7,955 bases of DNA from assembly GCA_001871015.1 (NCBI GenBank), contig MNUO01000095.1, positions 1 through 7,955 on the forward strand, read 5' to 3'. Position 1 is the first letter of the stretch; every line of letters begins with the position of its first letter. This DNA is from Candidatus Desantisbacteria bacterium CG1_02_38_46 (GTDB lineage Bacteria > Desantisbacteria > UBA1551 > UBA1559). Made by a program: the position numbers and the translations under genes. This document shows, one piece after another, positions 1,172 to 7,954 of the stretch. The notes beneath the pieces were generated by a model. It saw only the letters and a program-made list of their open reading frames with translations, was not told where the DNA came from and made no database searches.

Positions 1172-2369
1172 TCAACAACTCCACCAAAACTTCTTCTCCC
1201 TTTTTAATCTCTTTTCTCGCTGGAAGAACAACAATCCCGTTTGCCCAGACTAAAGATTTAAGTATTCCAGATTTTTGAGACGGAAAGGGAATTACACAAT
1301 ATCTTTCATTTTCTCCTGTTAGCTTCACTCTTATGAGATTTGTTCGGTCCCCATTATTTCTTATTAATTCCTCAAAATTTGCTCTGACTTTAAACCTTTG
1401 CCAATCATTTCTTCCTAACATTTTCAAAATCGCTGGACGAACAAGATTTTCAAAATTGAGCATTGAAGAAACAGGATAGCCAGGAAGTCCAAAAACAAGC
1501 GTTTTATCCCTTTTGCCAAAAAAAGTAGGTTTGCCAGGTTTCACTGCCACCTTCCAGAAAAGCATTTTTACCCCTGCATCTTTGAGCACATTCACAACTA
1601 TATCATAAACGCCTTCTGAAACACCACCGGAAAGAAGAAGAATATCAAATTTTAAACCCTCAAGAATTTTTTTTGATAAAATCTTTTCGTTATCTTTAGC
1701 AATTCCCAACCTATAAGATTTGCCACCACATTCTAAAACCTGCGAACACAGTCCATAACTATTGCTGTCATAAATTTGTCCTGTTTTCAATTTTACACCG
1801 GGTTCTACAATTTCATCACCTGTACTTATAACTGCAACGCGGGGCCTTCTGGTCACCTTAACTTTTGTCCTGTTCAATGCAGCAAGCATCGCAAGTTGTG
1901 GTGCGCGGATAAAGCTTCCTTTCTTAAGAATTAACTCTCCCTTTTTTACATCTTCTCCAGCAAAAGCAACATTCTCCTGTGCATTAACTGAGCGTAGAAT
2001 TCTTACATAATTTTTAATTTCTTTTGTATCTTCAAACATAACTACTGCGTCTGCACCTCCGGGCATTGGAGCACCAGTCATAATCCTGATACAACAACCA
2101 TTTCCAATCTTTATCTTTGTAGTTTTGCCTGCTGGTAAATCTGCAATTATTTTAAGTGTGACAGGATTTTGGAAAGAAGTGTTTGTTACATCTTTTGAGA
2201 TAACAGCATAGCCATCCATTGCTGCACGGTTAAATTCTGGAATATCAAAAGAAGAATAAATATCCTCTGCAAGTATTCTTCCCAGAGAAAAAGTAAATTT
2301 CACTTCTTCAGGATTCAAAATACTCGCAACAGACAACACTTTTTTTCTTGCTTCCTTTAGTGAAATCAT
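1158..2369 (-). CDS. moeA: Molybdopterin molybdenumtransferase MoeA
   Basis: MoeA inserts molybdate (or tungstate) into adenylylated molybdopterin, giving Mo-molybdopterin. The 403-aa product begins in the normal MoeA way (MISLKEARKKVLS) and shows the family landmarks in order: RAAMDGYAV at 48-56, MTGAPMPGGADAVV at 97-110, ISTGDEIVEPG at 181-191, SGGVSEGVYD at 247-256, VKPGKPTFFGK at 277-287, GLPGYPVSS at 294-302, and a C-terminal domain ending KKGEEVLVELLNVEF. I chose the ATG at 2369: it has GGAAAG just upstream and gives the usual MoeA length. An in-frame start at 2459 would add 30 residues foreign to the family. The chosen start still lies 62 nt inside tupC. The position directly after the transporter fits import followed by insertion of the metal. 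Confidence 0.96.
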   Translation of the reverse strand: MISLKEARKKVLSVASILNPEEVKFTFSLGRILAEDIYSSFDIPEFNRAAMDGYAVISKDVTNTSFQNPVTLKIIADLPAGKTTKIKIGNGCCIRIMTGAPMPGGADAVVMFEDTKEIKNYVRILRSVNAQENVAFAGEDVKKGELILKKGSFIRAPQLAMLAALNRTKVKVTRRPRVAVISTGDEIVEPGVKLKTGQIYDSNSYGLCSQVLECGGKSYRLGIAKDNEKILSKKILEGLKFDILLLSGGVSEGVYDIVVNVLKDAGVKMLFWKVAVKPGKPTFFGKRDKTLVFGLPGYPVSSMLNFENLVRPAILKMLGRNDWQRFKVRANFEELIRNNGDRTNLIRVKLTGENERYCVIPFPSQKSGILKSLVWANGIVVLPARKEIKKGEEVLVELLNVEF

Positions 2370-3015
2370 ATTCTTTCCATTTTTCAGTGACTTTTCCTGC
2401 TTCAAGATAAAAAACTCTGCCTTCAAATCGCTCAATTTCAGCAATGTCATAGGTGGCAAGGATTATAGTGGTCTTACATCGAGATTGCAGGGAAAGAATT
2501 GCATTCTGAATAAGCCTCTTGCTCCAGCTATCCAGATGAGTGGTGGGTTCGTCAAGGAGTAAAACTTCTGGCTCAAGCACAAGAGCTCTGGCTATGGCTA
2601 CCCTCTGTATCTCACCACCGGAAAGATTCAGGGCTGATTTATCTATGAATTCAGTGAGTTCCAATACTTTTACCACGGATTCAACTTTCACATTTATCTC
2701 ATTTTCACCCCGCACTCTCAATCCATAAGCAATGTTATTGAAAACAGAAGCATTAAACATTACAGAATTCTGCATCACCATAGTCATCCGCCTCTGCAAT
2801 GCAAATCTGGAAATTCGAGATGAACCTCCATCATATATCACTTCTCCTCTATCTGGCTCCTCTAACATATTCAAAATACGCAATAAAGTAGTTTTTCCTG
2901 CACCATTGGGTCCAATAATGCAGGTTGTACTACCCTTTTCAAATTCAACGGAAATTTTATCCAGAACAATTTTATTAATATATTTCTTCATGATATTATT
3001 CGCAAAAATTTTCAT
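2308..3015 (-). CDS. tupC: Tungstate ABC transporter, ATP-binding protein (TupC-like)
   Basis: This is the cytoplasmic ATPase that would power the TupB permease. The 235-aa ORF has Walker A GPNGAGKT at 35-42, the Q-loop glutamine at Q82, the ABC signature LSGGE at 131-135, Walker B VLLLDE at 151-156 and a D-loop at 159-162. The switch (H-loop) histidine, normally in a THD-type motif, is tyrosine here (ATYD, Y189; codon TAT, one base from CAT). The last 20 or so residues, a Lys-rich tail ending CCEYFES, lie beyond the usual ATPase core and are encoded in the 62 nt shared with moeA. The ATG overlaps the tupB stop (ATGA) and has an AGGAG Shine-Dalgarno at 3023-3027. The family is close to other molybdate/tungstate ATPases; the Tup assignment rests on its TupA and TupB neighbours. 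Confidence 0.92.
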   Translation of the reverse strand: MKIFANNIMKKYINKIVLDKISVEFEKGSTTCIIGPNGAGKTTLLRILNMLEEPDRGEVIYDGGSSRISRFALQRRMTMVMQNSVMFNASVFNNIAYGLRVRGENEINVKVESVVKVLELTEFIDKSALNLSGGEIQRVAIARALVLEPEVLLLDEPTTHLDSWSKRLIQNAILSLQSRCKTTIILATYDIAEIERFEGRVFYLEAGKVTEKWKEYDFTKGSKKKSVVCCEYFES

Positions 3016-3701
3016 CTTCGAACTCCTACCCCTTGTAGAAACTGCAAGAATAAATTCAGTATAAGTGAAACAACGAGCAGAATAATTGCCAGTGCAATTC
3101 CAAGTTCAAATTCTCCCCTCATTGTCTGTAGCGCAATTGCCGTTGTCATAACACGGGTACTTCCCTTTATATTTCCACCAACCATCATCGTCATCCCGGT
3201 TTCTCCAATAATACGGCTAAATCCCATTATAAAAGATGCCATCATTGGATACCTCGCCTCCTTAAAAATCGTCCAGGTAAGTTGCCACGAATTCGCACCG
3301 AGAGTAACTGCCGTGTCAATAAGTGACTTCCTGATTCCATCAATAGCAGCAATGGTCAGTGAAGTTATAATAGGAAAAACAAGAATTGCCTGAGCAACAA
3401 TCATTGCTCCAGGTGTGTATAACAATCTGAGAAAACCAAATAACCCCTGTCTTGTGAACATCAGGTAAAGAATAAGTCCAATTGCCACAGCAGGAATGGA
3501 GAGAAAACTGTTAATAAAAAGGAGAATTGCACTCTTTCCAGGAAAATCATTCATCGCTATTACCATTGCTACTGGAATTGCAACTAATGAAGAAACAAAA
3601 GCAGCAGTTAAAGAAACTCTTATGGATAGCAATGCTATCTCAATTACTTCCTTATCAAAACTAAAAACCAATTGGATTGCATTCTGAAATATTTGCGTCA
3701 T
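3012..3701 (-). CDS. tupB: Tungstate ABC transporter permease (TupB-like)
   Basis: This is the membrane subunit of the oxyanion importer. The 229-aa protein is strongly hydrophobic, with likely membrane spans near 21-50, 57-82, 97-121, 151-168 and 200-222. The EAA-type coupling loop (DTAVTLGANSWQLTWTIFKEA region, 129-149) contacts the ATPase. The following segment, GFSRIIGETGMTMMVGGNIKG (160-180) and TRVMTTAIALQT (182-193), is typical of TupB-type permeases and separates it from ModB and from sulfate permeases. It starts in an ATGA overlap with tupA, has AAAGGA 4 nt upstream, and ends in an ATGA overlap with tupC, giving a strictly coupled tupABC block. Specificity for tungstate over molybdate is inferred from family resemblance only. 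Confidence 0.94.
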   Translation of the reverse strand: MTQIFQNAIQLVFSFDKEVIEIALLSIRVSLTAAFVSSLVAIPVAMVIAMNDFPGKSAILLFINSFLSIPAVAIGLILYLMFTRQGLFGFLRLLYTPGAMIVAQAILVFPIITSLTIAAIDGIRKSLIDTAVTLGANSWQLTWTIFKEARYPMMASFIMGFSRIIGETGMTMMVGGNIKGSTRVMTTAIALQTMRGEFELGIALAIILLVVSLILNLFLQFLQGVGVRR

Positions 3702-4480
3702 TTTTTCCTTTCCAGAAAAAATAATTGTTGCCCATGCTTTTTGATTCCGTATTCCTGGATAATATTCCGCCCCTCACCTTTTGTTATGTAGTCCACGAAT
3801 TTCATTGCCAGGTCACAATTCACATCAGGATATTTCTTAGGAGAAATCGGTATAAGGGAATAAGGATTATATAGAATTTTATCTCCAGAAATCAAAATCT
3901 CCAGGTTTAATTCTTTGCGGTGTGCAATATAAGTAGCGCGGTCTGTTAAAATATACGCATTCTTCTCGCTCGCTATCCTTAAAGATTCAATCATCCCCTG
4001 CCCGGACTCAAGATACCATTTACCACCTGGTTTCACCTTAATTGCTGACCAGATTTCCTTTTCTTTTTCGTGTGTCCCGGAATCGTCACCTCTGGATACA
4101 AACAGTGAATTGGTCGAGGATATTCTTGCAAATACCTTTTCTGCATTTTTCACTCTACAGATGCCAGCAGGGTCATTCTCTGGACCTGCAATTACAAAGT
4201 CATTATGCATAACTTCATAACGCTTTATCCCAAATCCATCTTTTATCAGTTTTTCCTCTGATTTCCTGTCATGCACAAAAATTATATCTGCGTTTCCTTC
4301 CCTGGCAATTCTTATTGCTGCTCCGCTACCCACTGCCACAACTCTCACATTGCAGTTGTATTTCTTTTCAAATTTTAGCAGTAGTACATCAAGAAGCCCT
4401 GAATCCTGCACGCTTGTTGTGGTCGCCAGCATAAGAACAGCCATTACCAAATTTTTCATTTGACTTATCTTCTGCCACAC
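3698..4480 (-). CDS. tupA: Tungstate-binding protein (TupA-like)
   Basis: This is the substrate-binding component that would capture tungstate/molybdate outside the membrane. Family motifs are clear in the 260-aa product: LATTTSVQDSGLLD at 18-31 (TTTS ligates the oxyanion in TupA), VVAVGSGAAIRIAR near 47-60, NADIIFVHDR at 63-72, MHNDFVIAGP at 91-100, SRGDDSGTH at 129-137, YILTDRATY at 176-184 and NPYSLIPISP at 205-214. The start shown is GTG at 4480, with a G6 Shine-Dalgarno-like run 3 nt upstream; an ATG at 4459 (5 nt after the mogA stop) is the alternative. In either case only about 10-17 residues precede the first conserved strand, so a normal signal peptide or lipobox is missing. An in-frame TAA at 4490-4492 rules out a further upstream start. 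Family assignment is firm; the start and localisation are uncertain. Confidence 0.92.
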   Translation of the reverse strand: MWQKISQMKNLVMAVLMLATTTSVQDSGLLDVLLLKFEKKYNCNVRVVAVGSGAAIRIAREGNADIIFVHDRKSEEKLIKDGFGIKRYEVMHNDFVIAGPENDPAGICRVKNAEKVFARISSTNSLFVSRGDDSGTHEKEKEIWSAIKVKPGGKWYLESGQGMIESLRIASEKNAYILTDRATYIAHRKELNLEILISGDKILYNPYSLIPISPKKYPDVNCDLAMKFVDYITKGEGRNIIQEYGIKKHGQQLFFLERKK

Positions 4481-4965
4481 TCTCCCCCCTTACCCTGTAA
4501 AAGTTCAACCGCATGAGGAATGACAGGAAGGATTATATCAAGACATTCTTTTACTGCTACTGAACTACCTGGTAAATTGATTATAAGGGTTTTCCCGCGA
4601 ATACCTGCTATACTTCTCGAAAGCATAGCTTTTAGAGTAAACTTAAGACTTTTTATCCTCATAGCTTCTGGAATGCCCGGGATTTCCTTCTCGATAACTG
4701 CCCTCGTCGCCTCTGGGGTTACATCTCTTGCAGAAAATCCTGTTCCCCCTGTGGTCAATATCAAATCAATCTTCAGTTCATCTGCCAATATTTTCAGTTT
4801 CTTCTCAATGGTTTTTTTGTTATCAGGAATAATCTCGCGGCACAAAACCTTTGCCTTTATATTTTTGACCCGCGAGTTTATTATGGGTCCGCTCTTATCC
4901 TTTCGTTTTCCAGCAGAAGATTTGTCGCTGATTGTCAATATGGCAACTTTAATTTCTTTCCTCAT
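4465..4965 (-). CDS. mogA: Molybdopterin adenylyltransferase (MogA/MoaB family)
   Basis: This protein adenylylates molybdopterin with ATP so that MoeA can insert the metal. The 166-aa product has the MoCF-fold signatures: VAILTISDKSSAG at 7-19, KDKSGPII at 22-29, TTGGTGFSARDVTPEAT at 71-87, an acidic helix EIPGIPEAMR at 94-103, AMLSRSIAGIRGKTLIINLPGS (113-134) and a final ILPVIPHAVELL segment. The length is normal. It starts in an ATGA overlap with the MOSC gene. In some anaerobes MOSC and MogA domains occur as one fused protein (family knowledge), so the adjacency here looks like an unfused version. MogA and MoaB cannot be separated by eye. Its 3' end overlaps the GTG start proposed for tupA. 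Confidence 0.94.
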   Translation of the reverse strand: MRKEIKVAILTISDKSSAGKRKDKSGPIINSRVKNIKAKVLCREIIPDNKKTIEKKLKILADELKIDLILTTGGTGFSARDVTPEATRAVIEKEIPGIPEAMRIKSLKFTLKAMLSRSIAGIRGKTLIINLPGSSVAVKECLDIILPVIPHAVELLQGKGGECGRR

Positions 4966-5405
4966 TTTTCTTTCTGAATTCCATCTCCCTTTTTTATCCT
5001 CCCTCCATTAATCACACGTGCAAATACTCCCTGAATTGGCATAATGCAGGACCCGAGTTTTTTATAGATAGCACAGTGCCTCAAACATTTTTTCCCAAGC
5101 ATGGAAATTTCAAGAAGAACATCCCCAATTTTTATCTGACTTCCAAGTTTAATTGTACTGAAATCCATACCTTCAATTGTAAGGTTTTCTGCAAAATCAC
5201 CTGGCTTTATTTTCCCGGTGTTGGTTGGAAGACTCTGATTAAATATATTTATTGCTTCCATTGCAAGTAAACTTACCTGTCTTTCACCCGGGCCGGCATG
5301 GGCATCGCCTTCCAATCCCAAGTCTTTTCTGAAAAATCCCTGTTCTACAGGTGATTTTGAAATTCCCTTTTTCTTGCTGGTGTTTATTGAAATAATTTTA
5401 GGCAT
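4962..5405 (-). CDS. MOSC-domain protein
   Basis: This is a stand-alone 147-aa MOSC (Mo cofactor sulfurase C-terminal) domain. Members bind molybdenum cofactor or sulfur and are thought to deliver or modify it. Conserved elements are IISINTSKKKGISKSPV at 4-20, GLEGDAHAGPGERQVSLLA at 30-48, KPGDFAENLTIEG at 67-79, a sulfur-relay-like cysteine set GKKCLRHC (C107, C111) with GSCIMP (C120), and a VINGGRIKKGDGI end. The exact biochemical role of short MOSC proteins is not settled. Here it probably acts on the cofactor for the upstream formate dehydrogenase, possibly by adding the sulfido ligand; that is inference from context. It starts 3 nt after the moaC stop and no Shine-Dalgarno was seen, so translation is probably by coupling. 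Confidence 0.92.
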   Translation of the reverse strand: MPKIISINTSKKKGISKSPVEQGFFRKDLGLEGDAHAGPGERQVSLLAMEAINIFNQSLPTNTGKIKPGDFAENLTIEGMDFSTIKLGSQIKIGDVLLEISMLGKKCLRHCAIYKKLGSCIMPIQGVFARVINGGRIKKGDGIQKEK

Positions 5406-5408
5406 ATT

Positions 5409-5825
5409 CTAATTCATACTTTTGCCGCCGATTTTTTTAATCAGATGGATATCAGAAATAACTATTTTTTTATCCACCTGCTTGCACATATCGTATATGG
5501 TGAGAGCTGCAATTGTAACTGCAGTAAGCGCTTCCATTTCTACACCTGTTCTGTCAACAGCAGAAACTTTAGCCTCAATCGTGATGGTGGATTCTATGAA
5601 TGAAAATGAGATTTCGACTCCTGTTATTCTTATTGGATGACAGAACGGTATTAATTCAGAAGTCTTCTTTACTCCAAGTATTGCAGATGTTCTGGCAGTG
5701 GAAAGCACATCTCCCTTGGGAATTCTGTTAGCTTTAATTAGATTCACTGTTGCTGGCGACATTTCTACAGTGCCACGGGCAATTGCAAATCTAAAAGTTT
5801 CCTTCTTTTCTGTAACATCAATCAT
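5409..5825 (-). CDS. moaC: Cyclic pyranopterin monophosphate synthase MoaC
   Basis: MoaC converts the MoaA product to cyclic pyranopterin monophosphate. The 138-aa sequence carries the family motifs: MIDVTEKKETFRFAIARG at 1-18, IPKGDVLSTARTSAILG at 35-51, the substrate-pocket FCHPI at 61-65 (Cys-His), TGVEMEALTAV at 93-103, YDMCK at 111-115 with the catalytic Asp/Lys pair, and KIGGKS at 131-136. It is shorter than the usual roughly 155-160 aa because it starts at the MIDV position and lacks the LTHLD-type N-terminal strand. An in-frame stop a few codons upstream leaves no room for it. The ATG overlaps the mobA stop (ATGA). The active-site residues are intact, so I expect it to be functional. 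Confidence 0.95.
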   Translation of the reverse strand: MIDVTEKKETFRFAIARGTVEMSPATVNLIKANRIPKGDVLSTARTSAILGVKKTSELIPFCHPIRITGVEISFSFIESTITIEAKVSAVDRTGVEMEALTAVTIAALTIYDMCKQVDKKIVISDIHLIKKIGGKSMN

Positions 5826-6610
5826 TTCTCGTCTTTTCCTTGTAGATTATTATTTTGTTGATTACTTGTTGTTAACATTTTCAGTGCTTTTTCATAGTCT
5901 TTGACAGTGTTTACATTGAAAAACGACAGTCCCCGCCGGTCTATTTTCTTGAGGATTTTCTCTGGAACAAACTTCACATTTACGTACTTGAAAAAAGCCC
6001 TTACACGTCCCTGGTCCAGTAGCTTTTCTATGTAAGGAATGCATTTCTTTGAATAGACTGTACACAGGGGCTCAATCATCCCATGCCATTCAGGCACGAA
6101 GGCATCACAACCATCCACGTTTTCAATCAGATACTGAACAAGTTCTATTTTCAAAAAAGGAGTATCACAAGTTGTCACAAAATTGTAATCGGATGAACTA
6201 TTTTCCAACCCTGTATATAACCCCATCAAAGGACCGAGACCTTCTTTTTCATCTTTGACAACCCTAATTACCCCCCCTGCTTTCTTGCCAACAGTAGGCA
6301 CTCTGCCGAAAGTAGGCACTCTGCCGAAAGTAGGCACTCTGCCGAAAGTAGGCACTCTGCCGAAAGTAGGCACTCTGGAAGTGGAAGTGGAAGTGGAAGG
6401 GGAAGTGCGAAAGCAAAACTGGGGGGCGGTGTAAAGTTTTGGGTTATTGGTAACTACGATTATCTCTTCAAAGAGCGGTCTCAGTATTTTTATCTTGCGA
6501 CCGATGAAAGTATCGCCACCAAAACTCAAAAAAGCTTTTTCCTTGTTGCCAATTCTGCTACCTTTTCCTCCTGAAAGAATAATTGCATTCATTTTTTTAG
6601 GGACTGACAC
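5822..6610 (-). CDS. mobA: Molybdenum cofactor guanylyltransferase MobA with in-frame repeat insertion
   Basis: MobA transfers GMP from GTP to Mo-molybdopterin, giving the guanine dinucleotide form used by formate dehydrogenase. Visible motifs: the nucleotide-binding loop ILSGGKGSRIGNKEKAFL at 11-28, EIIVVTNNP at 49-57, KDEKEGLGPLMGLYTGL at 119-135, the metal-binding TTCDTPFL at 146-153 and FFNVNTVKDYEKA from about 230. The protein is 262 aa against roughly 190-215 for the family. The excess lies between Q64 and G112, where about 10 residues are usual: a TSPSTSTSTS stretch, then five copies of RVPT(F/V)G. The reading frame is intact. A Ser/Asn/Gln-rich tail closes the protein. The GTG at 6610 is preferred because AAGGGGG lies 3 nt upstream; ATG at 6592 would give the more usual MNAIILSGG start but has no Shine-Dalgarno. 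Confidence 0.93.
   Translation of the reverse strand: MSVPKKMNAIILSGGKGSRIGNKEKAFLSFGGDTFIGRKIKILRPLFEEIIVVTNNPKLYTAPQFCFRTSPSTSTSTSRVPTFGRVPTFGRVPTFGRVPTFGRVPTVGKKAGGVIRVVKDEKEGLGPLMGLYTGLENSSSDYNFVTTCDTPFLKIELVQYLIENVDGCDAFVPEWHGMIEPLCTVYSKKCIPYIEKLLDQGRVRAFFKYVNVKFVPEKILKKIDRRGLSFFNVNTVKDYEKALKMLTTSNQQNNNLQGKDEK
6285..6377 (-). repeat. 18-bp minisatellite inside mobA (encodes RVPTFG units)
   Basis: Four perfect copies of gtaggcactctgccgaaa (plus-strand reading) stand at 6294-6311, 6312-6329, 6330-6347 and 6348-6365, followed by a 12-nt partial copy ending at 6377. A degenerate half copy precedes the array at 6285-6293. Because 18 is a multiple of three, each unit adds RVPTFG to MobA without breaking the frame; the unit nearest the C-terminal side reads RVPTVG. 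The perfect identity of the units implies recent expansion or ongoing homogenisation. Confidence 0.97.
6378..6407 (-). repeat. 6-bp microsatellite inside mobA (encodes Thr-Ser repeats)
   Basis: Five hexamers in a row, gaagtg on the plus strand, with one substitution (gaaggg at 6396-6401). They abut the 18-bp array directly and encode the alternating Ser/Thr stretch (with one Pro) before the RVPTFG units. This repeat also preserves the reading frame. Confidence 0.95.
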
Positions 6611-6627: not shown

Positions 6628-6789
6628 TTATTTCTTTATCCTTATTAGTATCTCCCCGACCTTTCCCACACCACTGAGTGATTTCACCATTCCAAGAATA
6701 GTATTTATGATTATTTTTTTCACAAAAGGATTTATATCTACATCTTTTTTATTAACCTTAACTTCCACTGAAAATTTATTTTTTTTCAT
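6628..6789 (-). CDS. Small 53-aa protein of unknown function in the Mo cofactor operon
   Basis: This short gene fills what would otherwise be a 165-nt gap between mobB and mobA. It runs from an ATG at 6789 (14-nt overlap with the end of mobB) to TAA at 6628-6630. The product is basic, with Lys at about a quarter of positions. It alternates polar and hydrophobic residues at 6-12 (FSVEVKV), has an N-P-F-V motif at 20-23, then an amphipathic-looking segment KKIIINTILGMVKSLSGV (24-41) and a final strand-like EILIRIKK (46-53), suggesting a small beta-alpha-beta fold. There is no signal peptide and no Cys. No Shine-Dalgarno is apparent, so it is probably coupled to mobB, like its neighbours. I do not recognise a named family; the NPFVxxIIxNxIxGMVxSL pattern gives an impression of a conserved short protein rather than random sequence. 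Position suggests a role in Mo/W cofactor or formate dehydrogenase biology. Confidence 0.72.
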   Translation of the reverse strand: MKKNKFSVEVKVNKKDVDINPFVKKIIINTILGMVKSLSGVGKVGEILIRIKK

Positions 6790-7258
6790 ATTTTATAAAA
6801 ATGTCTACTTTATCCATTACTTCTTTTGCTGATTTTTTAATTTTTCCGTCCTTTGACATAATCATAATCGCAACGTCGGGATTCAACACCTCCAAAGCAT
6901 GGTTGCCCTCAAAAATTATTCCCTTGTAATTTCTCAACCTCTTAAATACCACCTCTATTGACTTTTTTAAGAATTCTGGTTTTGTCTTTACCCAAAGAAC
7001 CGCTTTTGCTCCTGCTTTCAACAATCTCTGCGTATCTTTTCCGTTTGAAGAAATTTCTTCTTTCTCTATTTCGTAATTCTTTTTCAAAGAACTGCACACA
7101 CCGTAGGACTTTTTTCCTCTGGGACATTTATGGGTTGCACCACCTATGCAGGTCGTAACCTTACATGCAGCCCAATTATCCAGTTTTCCAAGAAGCGTTT
7201 CTGCAAGAGCAGTCTTGCCTGCTCCGCTCATCGCTCCAGCGATACAGATGATTTTCAT
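6776..7258 (-). CDS. mobB: MobB-like P-loop NTPase
   Basis: This 160-aa P-loop protein is the probable partner of MobA in guanine dinucleotide formation. It has Walker A GAMSGAGKT at 8-16, a KDTQRLLKAGAKAVLWVKT segment typical of MobB-type proteins (KDT...AGA) in the middle, and IIFEGNHALEVLNPDVAIMI towards the C-terminus, resembling the MobB EG/pterin-contact region. Unlike standard MobB it carries four cysteines and a histidine between residues 32 and 55 (C32, C37, H43, C45, C55), which look like a possible metal site. I chose ATG 7258, directly before the P-loop strand and with TTGGATA just upstream. An in-frame GTG at 7288 lies inside the repeat element and would add 10 unlikely residues. 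It could also be a relative with a different maturation role; the mobA neighbourhood favours MobB. Confidence 0.78.
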   Translation of the reverse strand: MKIICIAGAMSGAGKTALAETLLGKLDNWAACKVTTCIGGATHKCPRGKKSYGVCSSLKKNYEIEKEEISSNGKDTQRLLKAGAKAVLWVKTKPEFLKKSIEVVFKRLRNYKGIIFEGNHALEVLNPDVAIMIMSKDGKIKKSAKEVMDKVDIFIKYEKK

Positions 7259-7278: not shown

Positions 7279-7432
7279 ATTTTACCACGGAGACACTGAA
7301 AAAGTAACTCAGGACTTTAGTCCTGATATGTAACTCAGGGCTTTAGCCCTGATATGTAACTCAGGACTTTAGTCCTGATATCAAAACTAAAGTTTTGAGT
7401 TACACATTTTCTCCGTGTCTCTGTGGTTAAAT
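7279..7432. mobile_element. MITE-like palindromic element between fdhA and mobB
   Basis: A non-coding block of about 154 bp is bounded by imperfect inverted ends. The left end reads TTTACCACGGAGACACTGA (7281-7299); the right end, read on the minus strand from about 7431, gives TTTAACCACAGAGACACGGA. Both ends continue inward into GTAACTC. Inside are four copies of a 26-bp hairpin unit. No transposase is present, so if mobile it would depend on a source elsewhere. The ends resemble the CCACAGAGACAC-type repeats scattered through many environmental bacterial genomes; this is recollection, not a search. The right end overlaps the fdhA stop codon, and the left end stops about 20 bp before the mobB start. 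Confidence 0.7.
7304..7403. repeat. Four 26-bp hairpin units (three direct, one inverted)
   Basis: Units lie at 7304-7329, 7330-7355, 7356-7381 and (inverted) 7378-7403, the last sharing a few bases with its neighbour through a GATATC junction. Each holds a perfect 7-bp stem with a 2-nt loop: CAGGACT-TT-AGTCCTG (7310-7325), CAGGGCT-TT-AGCCCTG (7336-7351), CAGGACT-TT-AGTCCTG (7362-7377) and CAAAACT-AA-AGTTTTG (7382-7397). Every difference in a stem arm is matched in the other arm. Each unit has GTAACT before and GATAT after the hairpin. In the transcript these would be four stem-loops between fdhA and mobB; the last one is followed by a short U-run, so partial termination or RNA protection of fdhA mRNA is possible. 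Confidence 0.92.
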
Positions 7433-7954
7433 TTTTCTTATCTTTACGGCACAGACTTTGAACTCAGGAATTTTTGCCACAGGGTCAAGGGCATCATTTG
7501 TAAGAATATTTGCAGATGCCTCTTTAAAATGAAAGGCCATAAAAATAATGCCGGGTGCTGGCCTCTCAGACACTTCGGCTTTAACCCTAACATTGCCCCT
7601 GCGAGAAGAAACCTCTACAATATCTCCAGTTTTCAATTTCAATTTTTCTGCATCTTCCGAATTTATTTCCGCAATTCCTTCAGGTCTGATTTCATTCAAT
7701 CCTGTTGAGTGTCTGGTCATAGTGCCTGTATGGTAATGATAAAGTATTCTGCCGGTAGTCAGCACGAAAGGATAATCGGAATCAGGTGTTTCTGCCGGTC
7801 CATTATATTCAACCGGACTAAAAAGGCCCTTGCCGCGATTAAATTTATCCCTGTGTAAAATTGGTGTACCCGGATGGTTCATATCAGGACAGGGCCACTG
7901 CAACCCTTCTTCTTCAAGGCGGTTATGCCTTATTCCTCCATAAATCGGGGTTGT
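7427..7954 (-). CDS. fdhA: Formate dehydrogenase catalytic (alpha) subunit, C-terminal fragment
   Basis: The last 175 residues of a molybdopterin oxidoreductase are present; the N-terminal part, with the Fe-S cluster site and the active-site Cys or Sec, lies beyond the window edge. The sequence LEEEGLQWPCP, HPGTPILH, KGLFSPVEY, YPFVLTTGRILYHYHTGTMTRHS, SSRRGNVRVKA, GIIFMAFHFKEASANILTN and DPVAKIPEFKVCAVKI is characteristic of the C-terminal bis-MGD-binding domain of FdhA-type formate dehydrogenases. They oxidise formate to CO2 or run in reverse. The frame is open to the window edge, so no start is given. The TAA stop is contributed by the edge of the repeat element, so the last couple of residues (RKI) may have been changed by its insertion. 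It precedes cofactor genes that would supply its bis-MGD with Mo or W. Confidence 0.93.
   Translation of the reverse strand, partial: TTPIYGGIRHNRLEEEGLQWPCPDMNHPGTPILHRDKFNRGKGLFSPVEYNGPAETPDSDYPFVLTTGRILYHYHTGTMTRHSTGLNEIRPEGIAEINSEDAEKLKLKTGDIVEVSSRRGNVRVKAEVSERPAPGIIFMAFHFKEASANILTNDALDPVAKIPEFKVCAVKIRKI

Follow-up and report, generated by a model that had tools for sequence, protein, structure and literature searches.

MobB has been known for a long time as a cofactor protein, and its function is still under debate. The P-loop domain of MobB (Pfam PF03205) has several solved structures (1p9n, 1np6, 2f1r, 1xjc, 4nkr and 4oyh), and in many phyla it is fused to an additional C-terminal tail. 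Such longer proteins are represented by the NCBIfam PRK14494 models (NF011062-NF011065; putative MobB/FeS domain-containing protein) of 227-244 aa, in which one chain carries an Fe-S motif besides the MobB P-loop domain. A search of open-licence papers for the PRK14494 domain yielded no description. In Methylorubrum extorquens, MobB and MoeA1 are required for W-dependent and not for Mo-dependent formate dehydrogenase (PMC13197769). In the 7,955-nt stretch of DNA analysed here (the window), from Candidatus Desantisbacteria bacterium CG1_02_38_46, the tail alone appears, judging by homology, to be encoded as a separate 53-aa protein between mobB and mobA.

The window is occupied by a minus-strand operon with the gene order mobB, the 53-aa ORF, mobA, moaC, a MOSC protein gene, moaB/mog, tupA, tupB, a transporter ATPase gene, moeA and a moaA-like gene. 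Upstream of mobB lies the C-terminal part of a bis-MGD oxidoreductase (7427-7903; Pfam Molydop_binding, E 1.4e-35), which runs off the contig and is the only Molydop_binding match in the genome. It is formate dehydrogenase-like, and we infer the formate dehydrogenase label for it. The mobA gene (5822-6610; molybdenum cofactor guanylyltransferase) matches Pfam NTP_transf_3 (E 1.7e-35) and the NCBIfam MobA models. It is followed by moaC (5409-5825; TIGR00581, over cut-off), the MOSC-domain protein gene (4962-5405; C-terminal half of NF011069) and the moaB/mog-type molybdopterin adenylyltransferase gene (4465-4965; TIGR00177, over cut-off). The transporter genes encode a tungstate-binding protein TupA (3698-4480; best match NF041772, E 2.3e-61, under the equivalog cut-off), a TupB-type permease (3012-3701; NF038017 over cut-off, NF041773 TupB E 2e-44) and an ATPase in the tupC position (2308-3015; many ABC ATPase models). 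The operon is completed by moeA (1158-2459; MoeA-type models, E 1e-124 to 1e-95) and the moaA-like radical SAM gene (218-1171), which was read from its translation alone. With the listed start, TTG at 2459, moeA shares 152 nt (2308-2459) with the transporter ATPase gene; a downstream ATG is the likelier start.

Two repeats were also observed in the window. Between the oxidoreductase gene and mobB, the 26-nt sequence GTAACTCAGGACTTTAGTCCTGATAT is repeated three times in tandem (7304-7381); every copy contains a palindrome, and an inverted relative comes next. Within mobA, an in-frame 18-bp tandem repeat (VPTFGR units; 6286-6377) is inserted between conserved parts; its 18-mer occurs at 12 sites of the genome with at most two mismatches, and the reversed control at none.

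The 53-aa ORF (6628-6789, minus strand, ATG start) is present exactly as the first-pass annotation had placed it, with all 53 codons open. The 14-nt overlap with mobB that it reported is there, the mobB stop codon ending at 6776, and so is the distance of 17 nt to the GTG start of mobA at 6610. It had also described this as the same tight spacing as that of every other gene pair. The description stands because the remaining gaps of the operon lie between -16 and +3 nt if the dubious long moeA start is set aside; 17 nt is the widest gap. Most genes of the operon are preceded by a Shine-Dalgarno-like sequence, and none was seen ahead of the ATG of the ORF. Translation from another possible start, the GTG at 6768, would leave a minimal domain of 46 aa; this start aligns with the starts of two homologues (L071 and L072, described below).

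The C-terminus of PRK14494, the last ~46 model positions, matches the ORF with E-values of 5.3e-7 and 1.2e-6. When the ORF was used as the sole query, the best matches were the C-terminal ends of MobB frames of 223-240 aa from other phyla (E 1e-3 to 1e-4). Because of these two kinds of match the ORF is identified as the MobB tail domain alone. It also matches the tail profile A1, of which it is itself one row. The whole tail of ~46 residues is matched, with the N-P-F, T-I-x-G-M and S-L-x-G positions kept. A chance ORF is ruled out by this homology to PRK14494, to the ends of fused MobB proteins and to free-standing homologues. The likeness to PRK14494 is confined to the tail: as sequenced, the frame is separate, with no MobB P-loop domain on its own polypeptide. 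The ORF contains no cysteine and scores far under the whole-protein cut-offs of PRK14494. It is not the P-loop domain of MobB; a Pfam search of the ORF gave no match, to PF03205 or otherwise. The Fe-S motif (PF04060) that would precede the tail was likewise found neither in the ORF by Pfam nor in the MobB of the window. A PDB sequence search with the tail returned nothing; in one searched fused MobB the solved MobB structures cover the chain up to residue 162, and the tail lies outside.

Tail domains are widespread. A profile of nine tails, whose rows were supplied by nine of the 386 sampled genomes, matches 59 of these genomes at E <=0.01, and most of the matching frames are 215-260 aa long. 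A profile built from 16 divergent tails proved too degenerate for scanning. The domain was found in about one seventh of the sampled genomes, yet no Pfam entry or solved structure was found for it. Fused forms were located at L002-L007, L055, L057, L060-L062, L076 and L077, and the fused proteins inspected have the architecture MobB-tail or MobB-FeS-tail. In the only other sampled genome of the phylum of the window, neither the mobB-like gene nor the ORF was found. A scan of genome contigs with the joined MobB-ORF protein gave no match.

As fusion is the common state, mobB and the ORF might be one gene. A run of eight A (A8; 6779-6786, minus-strand reading) lies at their junction, and with seven A the two frames are joined into a single MobB-tail protein; slippage at A8 (for instance in the transcript), an A added in the assembly or a recent frameshift mutation would each fit a normal MobB-tail fusion. 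That the ORF has no Shine-Dalgarno sequence of its own fits this as well. We nevertheless regard it, the main rival reading, as unlikely. The fused protein would have essentially no linker past the last MobB strand, and moeA contains a T8 run (1667-1674) across which its frame stays open. Further evidence comes from the neighbouring gene itself. The mobB-like gene (6776-7258, likely start ATG 7258; the ORF list gives GTG 7288) encodes a tailless protein of a divergent P-loop subfamily (26.4 bits with Pfam MobB, whose cut-off is 26.6), and elsewhere this subfamily is tailless or fused to MobA. Its closest relative found, a MobB-like protein 48% identical, is encoded in a Clostridia-labelled MAG (G067), which also has the tail as a clearly separate gene, placed after an in-frame stop and preceded by a strong Shine-Dalgarno sequence.

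The MobB of the window lacks the last ~20 residues present in this relative, which would fit a deletion at the junction. This, together with the absence of a Shine-Dalgarno sequence, could indicate that the ORF is a decaying remnant of a once-fused tail, transcribed and unused. We consider such decay very improbable, as every one of the 53 codons is open and the residues conserved in the family (N-P-F, T-I-x-G-M, S-L) are kept.

Other features of the divergent MobB-like subfamily (window 6776-7258; L021 1474-2604; L029 268-1401) are a cysteine-rich insert, fusion to MobA in several genomes and scores at or under the Pfam MobB cut-off. A helical protein of ~56 aa ending in LGCF, distinct from the tail, follows MobB-like genes; it is free at L030 (1248-1421, minus strand) and L024 (1877-2047, plus strand) and apparently fused to the MobB-like protein at L028 (1285-1980, minus strand).

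The tail is more than a broken MobB: free single-domain homologues were found in six other lineages. In the Clostridia-labelled MAG (L071) a 52-aa tail directly follows the MobB-like gene, with a strong AGGAGGT. In G260 (L037) a 71-aa tail precedes mobA and moaA; scanning the order and class of this genome gave no further free copies. In a Spirochaetota MAG (L075) a 53-aa tail with a Shine-Dalgarno sequence is located between moeA and moaC-moaB-moaA. Three free single copies do not adjoin cofactor genes: in Aminicenantes (L074) the tail is between protease-like and TatD-like genes, in two Methanofastidiosia archaea (L072/L073) it is beside flavodoxin-like and agmatinase-like genes, and in G287 it is a tail of ~48 aa. 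In addition, two genomes have tandem pairs. At L093 the pair follows fdhD with an ATGA overlap, its start falling within the stop codon of fdhD; at L088 it is flanked by fmdE and a gene for a molybdopterin-binding MoCF_biosynth protein. The PRK14494 C-terminus also matches the six free homologues tested, both tandem forms included. Overall, the free or paired tail most often adjoins late-acting Mo/W cofactor genes.

The earlier claim of a small conserved protein of Mo/W cofactor operons is therefore upheld, and homologues with the conserved residues are indeed present in related operons; the protein is not an orphan, however, and that it is a MobB-type C-terminal domain set free had been missed. 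The copies in archaea, Aminicenantes and G287 away from cofactor genes could mean that this conserved small domain serves some general purpose beyond Mo/W cofactors and that its membership in this operon is incidental. This seems improbable to us in view of the repeated fusion to MobB and the independent adjacency to mobB, mobA, moeA/moaC, fdhD and fmdE; moreover, the genomes tested also carry a tailless MobB. Seven genomes with free tails were inspected for MobB or MobB-like proteins, and those inspected are tailless, as in the window (L079-L082, L020/L071, L028, L029), a count that covers the proteins inspected. They are MobB proteins of 171 aa in Aminicenantes and 180 aa in both Methanofastidiosia archaea, a MobB-MobA fusion in the Spirochaetota MAG, a MobB-like-MobA fusion in G287, and the MobB proteins of G067 and G261.

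Between the two archaeal copies L072 and L073, the free gene shows seven synonymous substitutions and a single nonsynonymous one, the stop codon being ignored (dN/dS about 0.03; one-sided binomial P 7e-5); in this one pair the ratio is far from the value near 1 that had been named as speaking against a functional protein. AlphaFold2 with eight sequences predicted the 53-aa monomer at a mean pLDDT of 87 and a pTM of 0.64, with two short strands, one helix and then a C-terminal extended stretch, which is confidently placed and pairs with nothing in the monomer. The predicted fold is therefore beta-beta-alpha with this stretch added, and not strictly the beta-alpha-beta look noted in the first-pass annotation. 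Comparison of this model with the PDB by Foldseek and VIA-align gave no meaningful fold match. A prediction of a full fused MobB (L077, eight rows) had a mean pLDDT of 53 and was set aside. The unpaired C-terminal strand of the modelled monomer and the tandem duplications suggest that the tail may be a homodimer.

The best explanation, which we hold to be moderately probable, is that the ORF encodes an accessory domain of MobB that acts in trans while Mo/W-bis-MGD is completed. The separate tail would be translated by coupling to mobB and would act in trans with MobB, and possibly with MobA and MoeA, at the final stage of making Mo- or W-bis-MGD. It would probably do so as a homodimer, either docking MobB to a partner enzyme or assisting in holding the pterin intermediate. 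The chaperone or regulator role proposed in the first-pass annotation may be thought of in these terms, the trans-acting MobB module being its better-supported version. Three observations argue against this explanation: the three free single copies that do not adjoin cofactor genes; G260, which has a free tail and gave no MobB match at E 0.01; and the missing Shine-Dalgarno sequence of the window ORF. In its favour, a Molydop_binding oxidoreductase is found in 48 of 55 tail genomes (the other seven are without it) and in 199 of 331 others, and FdhD in 24 of 55 and 73 of 331, respectively, phylogeny being ignored in both comparisons. In the operon studied the metal is probably tungsten, since a TupA-type transporter and a bis-MGD oxidoreductase are both encoded in it. 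A broader proposal is that the tail, as a MobB fusion, a single protein or a tandem pair, could be a general, undescribed maturation factor of the late Mo/W cofactor pathway, in some lineages helping to commit the cofactor to tungsten or receiving it from MoeA/MobA and delivering it to FdhD and the enzyme; we offer this tentatively, as somewhat unlikely. With the 53-aa form split off, expression, deletion and binding of the domain can be studied independently of the MobB P-loop domain; the fused forms do not permit this.

The late tungsten-cofactor pathway of Methylorubrum extorquens, MoeA1-MobB-MobA-FdhD, is among the closest known counterparts, and a separate tail protein is not mentioned in the available part of its description (PMC13197769). 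FdhD, which belongs to that pathway, was not found by a search of the genome of the window, though a formate dehydrogenase-like gene is present; as the genome is 88% complete, this absence may be a gap. The operon context with moeA, mobB and mobA is common to both, and in the window a tungstate transporter accompanies these genes.
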